Source of the DNA: Bacteroidales bacterium | Lineage (GTDB): Bacteria > Bacteroidota > Bacteroidia > Bacteroidales > UBA932 | DNA: 62,659 nt | Assembly (NCBI GenBank): GCA_017469425.1 | Contig: JAFUGJ010000007.1 | Span: 1 to 62,659 of the forward strand | Direction of reading: 5' to 3' | In this document: in pieces, positions 58,754 through 62,659 of the stretch | Numbering within the stretch: position 1 is the first letter of the stretch | Layout: each line of letters starts with the position of its first letter | Position numbers and translations under genes: made by a program | Notes under the pieces: generated by a model | Databases searched by the model: none | Seen by the model: only the letters and a program-made list of their open reading frames with translations | What the model was told of the DNA's origin: nothing

Positions 58754-58827
58754 TGAGATGTGGTGTAATGGTAGCACTACAGATTCTGGCTCTGTCAGTG
58801 AGGGTTCGAATCCTTCCATCTCAACCA
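58754..58827 (+). tRNA. tRNA-Gln (anticodon CTG)
   Basis: 74 nt with encoded CCA. The acceptor TGAGATG pairs with CATCTCA; the anticodon stem ACAGA/TCTGT has loop TTCTGGC, giving CTG at 34-36; T-loop TTCGAAT. Confidence 0.95.
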
Positions 58828-58868
58828 AATCAGCCTTGTGCTGATTTTTATTTTGAAATACCATTGAT

Positions 58869-58945
58869 GGCGGGGTAGCTCAGCTGGTTAGAGCGTCGGA
58901 TTCATAATCCGGAGGTCGTGGGATCGTGACCCACTCCCGCTACCA
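58869..58945 (+). tRNA. tRNA-Met (anticodon CAT)
   Basis: 77 nt with encoded CCA. The acceptor GGCGGGG pairs with TCCCGCT (G-T at both ends); the anticodon stem TCGGA/TCCGG has loop TTCATAA (CAT). The T-loop reads ATCGTGA instead of the usual TTCRANY, with the T54-A58 pair exchanged for A54-T58. It lacks the three G-C pairs of initiator tRNA, so it is probably elongator Met; a lysidine-type Ile tRNA is the alternative. Confidence 0.88.
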
Positions 58946-59453: not shown

Positions 59454-61655
59454 CTATTTCTTTTTAAGAATCCATGCCAGCATGTTGGCACTCAGGCCAA
59501 AATTGATTGTCCATGCGGGGGCAGGTGCAGGAAATGCCGTATGAGCGGCATAAAGTCTGGCACGAACCGTGAACTCGGATAAACCGTAAGTCGTGGGAAG
59601 AGACTCAATGACCCTGAAGAACTTGTAATCAGCACAGAGACCTGCCTGAAATCGGAAGCCTGATATTTCATCGGTTTTTTTATCCGGGTCCACCGGGTGC
59701 GACGGATAGTCAATAAAACCAACTCCGATACCGGCAAAGGGGGCAAGCCTCCACCACTGCGAATCAAATACTGTATAACCCAAGGAAGCTTCTAAGTTGC
59801 CGCCCGTCATCTTTTTCCCCGCCTCCCACTGATACCCATCCCGCTGAATGTCCTTTTTGTAGGTTCCGCCCCATCCCAGAAGGCCGCCCAAATAAAGGTT
59901 AAACTCGCTGAATGTAAAATCAAAACCGAAGTCCAAACCAGCAATGGGGGTTACATATGCTGCCATCGGCCCGGTATAGACTTCACTCCCCACGCCTAAA
60001 TGCATACCGATACCAAATCCTTTGGGATTGATTATCAGATCTGAAGACTCAGCGTTCCCAATCTGGGCAAGTTCGTTCCGGACACGGCTTGAATAGTAAT
60101 TTACGACAGCTGTATCCAAGCCCTGACGCGATTCGTCTTTCATCTTTGCAATAAAACTCTCTGCAACATCCAAATGGAAACCTATCACTTCCGGGTAAGT
60201 GAATTTGGAGCCCGACAAATAATCATTCTGCGCACGCCGACGGCAAATCTCGACATAGTCAAATCCTGTCTGGATATACTGAAGCATCTCCGGAGTCCGG
60301 AAATCCGGGTGGACCCACGATGTGAAAGGGTTCATATAACTGCGGGACTCCGGGATGCGGATAAGGGTATTCCCTATTTTCCGGCGGCCTGTCTCCCAAG
60401 AGATGGCATATTCGAACTCCGATATTTTAGGAAGTTCACTTCCTCTTGTTGTAAGGTCGGCCCAGGACAGGGGACCCTTATCCCAATACCTTATGGAAGA
60501 ATCCATCGTGACCGCATCGGTACTTTTCGCAGTGCGGACAAACCATCCTATCTTGGGCGTCATCCGAAAGTCGCCGGCATCTTCAGTAACGCCCACAATC
60601 CCCGCAACCAGCTCCAGCGGCGTCTCGCTCAAAACCACTCCAACCGGCGAGACCACCTGGTATTTGAACGGCACGACCACGGTTTCCGGAAGCATGGTCT
60701 GCGTAATGGTCACTTTGTCGGGGGTCCGGCCTTTATTGTCAAAAGGGAAGAATTGCAGGAACCAGCCGTCGAACTCTGTCTGCTTTACGGGGTGTTTGGA
60801 ACAGGTAGGCCCCTGAATGGTCCGAGGACGGGTTTTCTTTACGATATCTTTCCAAAACCAATAATCCGGATGCCCTTCCGAGGCGCTGACGAATTCTTCC
60901 AGAATAGGCTCCAGTTTCGATGTCCACCAGCCGAAACCAAGTGCTGCGAGGGAACGGGTTTTTTCCAGAACTTTGCGCCAGTCCTCCGGCGTTCCAGTAA
61001 GGGTGATGGACGGAATTCCACAAGCTGCATAGATGACCGTATAGTCAAAATACGGCTTGACGGCATCCATCAGCGTCACTTCTGATGCAATGAGTTCATC
61101 CGGCCCGGTAGTGGAGAAATCGGCCACAAGCGAGGAAGCAATATCGTTGTTCGTGTATTTGCCTATTTCGGCCGTAAAACCGGCAATAAGTCCGGCCCAG
61201 TCGGCCTGGCTGGATAAAAGGTCGGCACCGGTTTCCACTTTCAGTTCCTTTTTCCCCTCATGGTTCACCAGAATCTTTCTGTACTTCTCCGGATTCTCAT
61301 TGATGGAATGGCTGACCTGTTGGCAGATGACCAGCCAGATGGCATCCGGACTAAGAGTAACGGGCCGATGCTGGCACCATGCCTTCAACAGCATCTGGAA
61401 CAGGACATCCTGGCCGATATCGTACAGGTCTTTTTCATCGGAAAAGCTATTGGCCAGCAGTTCCGGTTCCCAGTCGGAAAACAAATTGCCTTTTGTATTC
61501 AGATTGAGCTCCTTGGCCAATTCAGTTCCGCTCCTGTGCCAGCCACAATGATTCGTGGGAGGCTCCACTTCATCGACGGCAAAAGTGATGGAAGGCTGTG
61601 CGTAGGAAAACACAACCATCATAAGACCCAGATATAGGAAGAATATGCGTTTCAT
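59454..61655 (-). CDS. DUF4419 protein with C-terminal barrel domain
   Basis: 733 residues. A signal peptide (MKRIFFLYLGLMMVVFSYAQ) precedes a DUF4419 region at about 60-370, recognisable by LSPDAIWLVICQQVSHSINENPEKYRKILVNHEGKKEL, the FSTTGPDELIASEVTLMDAVKPYFDY block and CGIPSITLTGTPEDWRKV. A segment of about 120 residues and a beta-barrel-like C-terminus follow (about 545-733: MAAYVTPIAGLDFGFDFTFSEFNLYLGGLLGWGG), ending in a basic tail. DUF4419 has no known function. It is coupled to the GNAT gene by ATGA overlap. Confidence 0.82.
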   Translation of the reverse strand: MKRIFFLYLGLMMVVFSYAQPSITFAVDEVEPPTNHCGWHRSGTELAKELNLNTKGNLFSDWEPELLANSFSDEKDLYDIGQDVLFQMLLKAWCQHRPVTLSPDAIWLVICQQVSHSINENPEKYRKILVNHEGKKELKVETGADLLSSQADWAGLIAGFTAEIGKYTNNDIASSLVADFSTTGPDELIASEVTLMDAVKPYFDYTVIYAACGIPSITLTGTPEDWRKVLEKTRSLAALGFGWWTSKLEPILEEFVSASEGHPDYWFWKDIVKKTRPRTIQGPTCSKHPVKQTEFDGWFLQFFPFDNKGRTPDKVTITQTMLPETVVVPFKYQVVSPVGVVLSETPLELVAGIVGVTEDAGDFRMTPKIGWFVRTAKSTDAVTMDSSIRYWDKGPLSWADLTTRGSELPKISEFEYAISWETGRRKIGNTLIRIPESRSYMNPFTSWVHPDFRTPEMLQYIQTGFDYVEICRRRAQNDYLSGSKFTYPEVIGFHLDVAESFIAKMKDESRQGLDTAVVNYYSSRVRNELAQIGNAESSDLIINPKGFGIGMHLGVGSEVYTGPMAAYVTPIAGLDFGFDFTFSEFNLYLGGLLGWGGTYKKDIQRDGYQWEAGKKMTGGNLEASLGYTVFDSQWWRLAPFAGIGVGFIDYPSHPVDPDKKTDEISGFRFQAGLCADYKFFRVIESLPTTYGLSEFTVRARLYAAHTAFPAPAPAWTINFGLSANMLAWILKKK

Positions 61656-62194
61656 AATGACCCGGATAATGGCGGTTTCTGCAAAGATAATGATTTTTCA
61701 GCCAGCAGCTGGTACGCCAGCCTCTCGTCGCCGGACTCCAGAAGGATGATGCCGCAGTAGCGAAATCCTGCCTTGAGGATGCAGTGCTGCATGATGGAGT
61801 TGTCGCGATGGGTGTCGATACGCAGATTTCTGCAGCGCCCGAGGCAGAATGTGATGACATCTGCAAAGATGCCGTGCGAGCCGGGGAGGCTTCCGATACG
61901 ATGGATTACATAATATGGCTGCGAGTCGTCCAGCCAGGCACCATCGTAGATTACCGCGTAAGTGGGCTCGGGCGATGCGATGAATGCAAAATAAGCCACA
62001 ATCTTCCCGTCGTCGCAAACCACATAGCCGTTGCCGCGGCGGATGTCGTCCGAAATTACCTCTGCGGACGGGTATCCGCCTATCCACTGCCCGTGATTTC
62101 CGTCTGCGCGCATGATTCCTTTTGCCGCTTCCAGCACGGGCATAATCTGCGGAATGTCTTCCGCCGCTGCGGGCCTGATTATCCTTCTTGCCAT
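61652..62194 (-). CDS. GNAT-family N-acetyltransferase
   Basis: 180 residues with a GNAT layout: RIIRPAAAEDIPQIMPVLEAAKGIM at the start, a VCDDGKIVAYFAFIA strand and a C-terminal LRIDTHRDNSIMQHCILKAGFRYCGIILLESGDERLAYQLL pattern. Substrate unknown. It is the first complete gene downstream of the his-leader remnant, with no -7 element of its own visible, so it may be expressed from the former his promoter at 62335. Confidence 0.85.
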   Translation of the reverse strand: MARRIIRPAAAEDIPQIMPVLEAAKGIMRADGNHGQWIGGYPSAEVISDDIRRGNGYVVCDDGKIVAYFAFIASPEPTYAVIYDGAWLDDSQPYYVIHRIGSLPGSHGIFADVITFCLGRCRNLRIDTHRDNSIMQHCILKAGFRYCGIILLESGDERLAYQLLAEKSLSLQKPPLSGSL

Positions 62195-62203
62195 AATGCA
62201 AAT

Positions 62204-62293
62204 TTATTTGTGCCGCGACATCAGCTCGGCCTGGAGGTCAGCGAGCGAAACCCCCATGATGTTGTTCAGCACCAGCAGGTGATACAGCAGGTC
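62204..62293 (-). pseudogene. hisE: C-terminal remnant of hisE
   Basis: 29 codons reading DLLYHLLVLNNIMGV, then SLADLQAELMSRHK and TAA. This is the last helix of phosphoribosyl-ATP pyrophosphohydrolase (typical ADLLYHLLVLL...L..R), the enzyme of step 2 of histidine synthesis. There is no start codon; a few codons upstream the frame hits TAA. It is out of frame with the His-rich leader that now covers its upstream end. Confidence 0.75.
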
Positions 62294-62328
62294 GGATGAT
62301 GATGGTGGTGTGCATTATAAAGTATCAT
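62266..62328 (-). other. hisL: Histidine leader peptide remnant
   Basis: ATG at 62328 opens a 20-codon frame MILYNA, five consecutive His codons (62296-62310), then PTCCITCWC and TGA. A short frame with a run of His codons 6 nt from a -7 element is the hallmark of a his-operon attenuator leader. From about the end of the His run, the DNA is instead the tail of hisE in another frame. Confidence 0.7.
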
Positions 62329-62334
62329 CGCCCA

Positions 62335-62342
62335 CAAATGTA
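62335..62342 (-). promoter_or_regulatory. -7 element of the former his operon
   Basis: Minus-strand TACATTTG, 6 nt before the leader ATG, the same spacing as in other genes of the window. Confidence 0.55.
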
Positions 62343-62386
62343 GCAATCTTTCTTAAAAAATGTAACCATTGACAGGAAATATTTAC

Positions 62387-62394
62387 TACTTTTG
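62387..62394 (+). promoter_or_regulatory. -7 element of the Cys-rich lipoprotein gene
   Basis: TACTTTTG with a 59-nt leader to the ATG at 62454. Confidence 0.5.
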
Positions 62395-62453
62395 TGTCGT
62401 GGTCTTTGAATCACAATGTTTTAACCGGTTAAATTTTAAAAGTTTATTGCCTT

Positions 62454-62659
62454 ATGAAGAAGGTTTATGTAATCCTCGCAGTTGCCGCCCTCACTCTGTG
62501 CGTTGCATCTTGCGGAAACAAGAAGAAGGCTCAGGAAGCTGAGCAGGAAGCTACCGAATGTTGTACCAAGGCTGAAGGCGATTGCTGCGCCAAGGAAGAA
62601 GGCGAGTGCTGCAAGAGCGCTGCCGAGGAAGTCAAGGACGCCGCTGCCGCCGCTGCAAA
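62454..62659 (+). CDS. Cys-rich lipoprotein (3' end cut by window)
   Basis: The first 68 residues are present. The lipobox is CVASC, with Cys at about residue 20, then a charged KKKAQEAEQEATE stretch and three CC pairs spaced exactly eight residues apart (ECC, DCC, ECC), then an Ala-rich region. The CC-x6-CC-x6-CC pattern could bind metal. The frame continues beyond the window. Family not recognised. Confidence 0.7.
   Translation, partial: MKKVYVILAVAALTLCVASCGNKKKAQEAEQEATECCTKAEGDCCAKEEGECCKSAAEEVKDAAAAAA

Follow-up and report, generated by a model that had tools for sequence, protein, structure and literature searches.

The window, the whole stretch of DNA that was analysed, is an entire contig (C95; 62,659 nucleotides) from a 2.53-Mb draft genome made up of 103 contigs, with a completeness of 94% and a contamination of 6.3%. 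Its minus strand carries, within 139 bp close to the right end, a TAnnTTTG box, a leader in which five His codons occur, and the final 30 codons of hisE. The features of this region are as follows.

62454 to 62657, plus strand: first part of a divergent lipoprotein-like gene that runs off the contig (open reading frame; DNA of 62374 to 62659 is 85% identical to genome G191)
62335 to 62342, minus strand: TACATTTG, -7 box of Bacteroidetes type, from the former his promoter (read directly; box-to-ATG count)
62266 to 62328, minus strand: leader frame MILYNAHHHHHPTCCITCWC, 20 codons (open reading frame translation; leaders of relatives)
62296 to 62310, minus strand: five consecutive His codons, CAC CAC CAT CAT CAT (read directly)
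62294 to 62299, no strand assigned: probable deletion junction; homology to hisE starts at 62296, where the fifth His codon ends (DNA search of relatives)
62204 to 62296, minus strand: hisE remnant, last 30 codons and TAA stop (Pfam, NCBIfam and comparison with the HisIE of G191)
62199 to 62206, minus strand: TAAATTTG, possible own promoter of the acetyltransferase gene, overlapping the hisE stop and 4 bp before the acetyltransferase ATG (box-to-ATG count)
61652 to 62194, minus strand: GNAT-type acetyltransferase gene, 180 aa, ATG at 62194 (open reading frame; PDB matches)
59454 to 61655, minus strand: DUF4419 gene, 733 aa (open reading frame; Pfam)

TAnnTTTG, which we take to be the Bacteroidetes-type -7 consensus, was followed by an ATG after 3 to 10 bases 21 times in the window (both strands), compared to a mean of 3.9 and a maximum of 8 in 30 simulated sequences. 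At the scar, the leader ATG at 62328 lies six bases past the TACATTTG box (62342 to 62335), the predicted peptide begins with MILYNAHHHHH, and the leader stop ends at 62266. The frame corresponds to a true leader as far as the His codons and thereafter to out-of-frame hisE sequence until its TGA. The hisE remnant itself (SDLLYHLLVLNNIMGVSLADLQAELMSRHK, then stop) is read in a different frame, and the two operon ends are in the right order and on the right strand. A sequence-only reading had described this arrangement of box, leader, five His codons and hisE tail in differing frames; all of it was read directly in the window, except that the hisE codons number 30 and not 29. Its statement that no his genes lie between leader and hisE tail also held, there being no intervening sequence at all. 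About 360 bp separate the junction from the contig end.

The hisE tail was matched by the NCBIfam models NF001613 (E 5e-7) and NF002747 (HisIE; E 1.3e-4) and by Pfam PRA-PH (phosphoribosyl-ATP pyrophosphatase; E 7.7e-4), the latter with 20.3 bits, slightly below the cut-off of 21.3. It is 81% identical to residues 169 to 199 of the intact HisIE of G191, the closest relative at this locus. A complete HisE or HisIE domain was not found in the window, only these last 30 codons, and on sequence grounds the tail is a remnant and not an enzyme. When 232 genomes were searched at the DNA level, 13 listed matches ran through the hisE start of relatives; 11 of them begin at query position 175 (base 62296) and the other two at positions 173 and 177. 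This count leaves out two further 22-base matches at query positions 192 to 213. Chance resemblance to hisE was rejected on the basis of the family models and this sharp start of homology. A pattern search with the promoter box, His codons and hisE motif gave six stretches in genome contigs (a collection that may omit the window's own genome), all of which were chance occurrences, with no his match better than E 0.26. A search for the exact junction in viral contigs gave nothing.

At the junction the two ends share a few bases at most; the exact shared length cannot be fixed because the hisE Ala codon before the junction varies among relatives. This bears on the possibility that the operon ends were joined artificially, as an assembly or library chimera, and that the organism has an intact operon. 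Such an artefact would be in keeping with a draft assembly of the contamination given above and with a junction near the contig end, and no second genome with the same junction was found among the other genomes searched. However, assemblers use exact overlaps of about 20 or more bases, and the bases shared here are too few for that. In addition, the missing his genes were found nowhere else in the genome, and comparable remnants occur in four other assemblies. A chimera is therefore considered very unlikely.

For the genome search that the sequence-only reading had proposed, the eight His proteins of G191 were used as queries. In the window's own genome they matched nothing but the hisE remnant and an aminotransferase with 35% identity to HisC, whereas the same queries recovered the whole his operon in G191. 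The hisD family model had no match in the window's genome and matched in 13 of 14 control genomes. On this 94% complete draft, the genes expected between leader and hisE were thus not found in the genome. Incompleteness of the genome is an unlikely cause, because the operon's own two ends are joined here. Absence of hisIE is common in the genus, since HisIE matches (remnants included) were obtained in only 174 of 400 genomes, and in 80 of the 150 with completeness of at least 90% and contamination of at most 5%; hisD was present in 32 of 61 relatives. From its gene content, the bacterium is likely a histidine auxotroph.

In G191, an intact hisG-D-C-B-H-A-F-IE operon adjoins the same lipoprotein-like gene, with the orientation seen in the window. 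Its DNA corresponding to window positions 62659 to 62374 includes the start of that gene and is followed by the operon, with hisG beginning straight after the promoter, without a leader. The lipoprotein-like gene had no Pfam match. The comparison with relatives for an intact operon at this place thus succeeded in G191 on the lipoprotein side, but on the acetyltransferase side the scar has no match there; the gene after hisIE in G191 is another one, on the opposite strand, and in no relative examined is the acetyltransferase next to hisIE. In 16 other genomes read beside the lipoprotein-like gene, the his operon was never the neighbour. The neighbours of the operon and of the lipoprotein-like gene vary within the clade, and in G192 the two are on different contigs. 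This variation would suit an alternative in which the his fragment had been shortened before it arrived here and the complete operon disappeared from a different site; the intact operon of G191, at the same gene and in the same orientation, argues against it, and we regard it as quite improbable.

The scar was very probably formed by deletion in place, with the two ends of the his operon joined and the pathway genes between them lost from the genome. A single deletion between leader and hisE with loss of the pathway, as had been proposed from the sequence, is supported by the G191 operon, by the missing his genes and by the four remnants elsewhere in the genus. Counted against it are that no single relative shows the complete ancestral layout and that the acetyltransferase follows hisIE in none of those examined. 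In the ancestor, a promoter, His leader and attenuator would have preceded hisG-D-C-B-H-A-F-IE at this site, next to the lipoprotein-like gene; G191 retains this layout except for the leader. One deletion of approximately 6.9 kb (6.8 kb from the G191 operon plus about 0.1 kb of leader region) would have joined the His codons of the leader to about codon 170 of hisIE. It would have removed the attenuator and every intact operon gene, so that the cell should need external histidine.

The event looks recent, because the hisE remnant keeps its reading frame. Compared with five intact relatives, the remnant differs by 10 to 13 silent and 5 to 8 replacement codons of 31, which is within the spread for pairs among those five (10 to 19 silent, 0 to 9 replacement). 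In this small sample, the codon changes show no sign of long decay.

For analysis of his leaders in the genus, 40 loci with his genes were fetched, of which 36 held hisG. A run of at least three His codons within 260 bases upstream of hisG was present in 29 of the 36, within a short frame that often follows a TAnnTTTG-like box, and His leaders before hisG are thus usual in the genus. By this rule no His run was found at L092, L102, L103, L139, L203, L211 and L229; L211 has a mixed His/Arg run upstream of hisG. The leaders of relatives are usually followed by a GGTARGT segment and a terminator. An alignment of 24 of the 29 leaders (L104, L197, L200, L202 and L204 omitted) gave 10 pairs for the terminator; at 5 of these, both sides have changed in some sequence. 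In most rows GGTARGT is able to pair with the 5' arm of the terminator, an arrangement known from classical attenuators. At gathering score, no Rfam family matched any of seven loci searched, the scar included. At locus L272 (G121:C1, about 1853 to 2030), an intact his operon with its own leader is preceded by a further leader and terminator together with about 18 codons from the hisG start.

With a threshold of E <= 0.001, and counting weak and partial matches, a model of the leader hit 164 of 400 genomes in the genus. Among the stronger, listed matches, twelve genomes with a leader match and without a HisIE match were inspected. Eight (G083, G326, G321, G271, G379, G390, G004, G101) have the operon, truncated at the end of a contig, and in one (G264) the leader is an orphan. 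The matches in G207, G188 and G355 had no his genes and look like chance terminators.

In the enterobacterial his operon, the hisL leader peptide is combined with an attenuator. The relatives of the window's species resemble it in having a short leader with a His run before hisG, then a terminator that an upstream segment could block; the window, in contrast, keeps only promoter and His codons, and the attenuator is gone. A passage of one paper states that the Rfam amino-acid attenuator motifs may have arisen in gamma-proteobacteria, with very few transfers (PMC3766115), and hisG leaders in gamma-proteobacteria are mentioned in a passage of another (PMC4833913). Literature searches on His leaders in Bacteroidetes, on histidine in Cryptobacteroides (perhaps the genus) and on his-operon remnants gave nothing on this case; the wider literature may describe Bacteroidetes His leaders. 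At L274 (G012:C75, 2551 to 2666), a leader with a Thr-codon run and a terminator precede genes that resemble thrB and thrC, from which attenuators in the genus may not be limited to his.

The acetyltransferase was assigned to the GNAT type by similarity (PDB 2pc1, E 1.9e-23; 3h4q, E 6.5e-7); no Pfam or NCBIfam model matched at E <= 1. Among 106 loci searched, 66 of them with hisIE, it was next to hisIE in none. The possibility that it is an old operon member was not supported, as at E <= 1e-20 only L207 had a match among the 106 loci. In L207 (G201:C2, 916 to 1395) this relative of the gene lies about 5.8 kb upstream of hisG, and in G308 and G089 a relative lies, by coordinates, 4 to 5 kb upstream of the leader. 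tRNA-Gln and tRNA-Met genes are located at 58754 to 58945 of the window. On G192:C14, about 5.3 kb containing other genes separates the lipoprotein-like gene from the corresponding tRNA stretch. From these two layouts, the scar, the acetyltransferase gene and the DUF4419 gene sit in a variable segment beside tRNA genes.

It had been suggested that the GNAT and DUF4419 genes inherited a histidine-controlled promoter. If that promoter still answered to histidine, it would now regulate these two genes; the box and the five His codons, in a short leader frame behind the promoter, are intact, and no terminator-like site was found between 62335 and 62194 before the acetyltransferase. The terminator and alternative pairing that follow the leader in relatives are nevertheless absent in the window, the RNA of the scar folds no better than shuffled sequences (z 0.31), and the window's own genome gave no match to the leader model at E <= 0.001. 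Retained control is thus extremely unlikely, and the suggestion was not borne out. Because the deletion removed the attenuator after the leader, which would be the source of such control in relatives, histidine control of the surviving promoter was probably lost and not passed on. If active, the former his promoter would read through into the acetyltransferase and DUF4419 genes without sensing histidine. Alternatively, the acetyltransferase gene may use its own -7-like box, TAAATTTG, as a candidate promoter.

Comparable his remnants were found in four other genomes of the genus (G301:C194, G136:C67, G213:C7 and G264:C141), the first three through partial HisIE matches and the last through the leader search. 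G301 has a hisE tail of about 60 codons that contains a TAG. In G213, a leader and terminator remain, and 16 hisG codons are fused to a truncated hisIE. Both lie between a gene for a UvrD-type helicase and the next gene, which flank intact operons in G033, G017 and G096. In G136, the first leader codons and a hisE tail with a TAG are situated between purD and folD. In G264 (72% complete), purD and folD enclose a leader, and that contig has no his gene. In G083, leader and his genes lie beside the same purD up to the contig end; PurD of G083 and G264 is 97% and 95% identical, respectively, to that of G136. All four resemble the scar in the window in that end pieces of the operon are kept and the middle is gone, but their end points differ. 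Judged from these remnants, the his operon has been lost more than once in the genus. G213 need not be an auxotroph, because a second, distant hisIE is present elsewhere (L216; G213:C63, 3066 to 3659 of the contig); it is 48% identical to that of G191 and possibly belongs to a replacement operon from elsewhere. In G145 (C185:3678 to 4552), a genome without a HisIE match, HisH-like and HisF-like pieces lie together without hisA and may belong to another pathway.

Since the remnants were found through hisE or the leader, scars keeping neither would be missed, and a favoured sparing of operon ends cannot be claimed. A speculative and rather unlikely extension is that repeated internal his deletions in the genus spare ends that serve neighbouring genes, with an attenuator-free promoter driving the next genes constantly and the hisE 3' end carrying a promoter for the following gene. 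If true, a histidine-controlled promoter would here have become a constant one for the acetyltransferase and DUF4419 pair.

Loss of amino-acid pathways is known from host-associated bacteria, and a complete biosynthetic operon is lost there as here; in the window, by contrast, both operon ends survive, so that the evidence for loss goes beyond missing genes. Events in which an operon is lost by deletion are known; the anatomy of this one is unusually clear and, with its relatives, more informative than most. In uncultured bacteria, auxotrophy is usually inferred from missing genes, which in drafts may be missing data; a site at which both ends of the operon survive is evidence of a positive kind. 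In the intact relatives, the His leaders form a family whose terminator is conserved and which had no Rfam match in the seven loci searched. The genus has species in which the operon is present, partly removed or gone (the purD genes of G083, G136 and G264 are nearly identical), and the course of pathway loss can therefore be studied directly.
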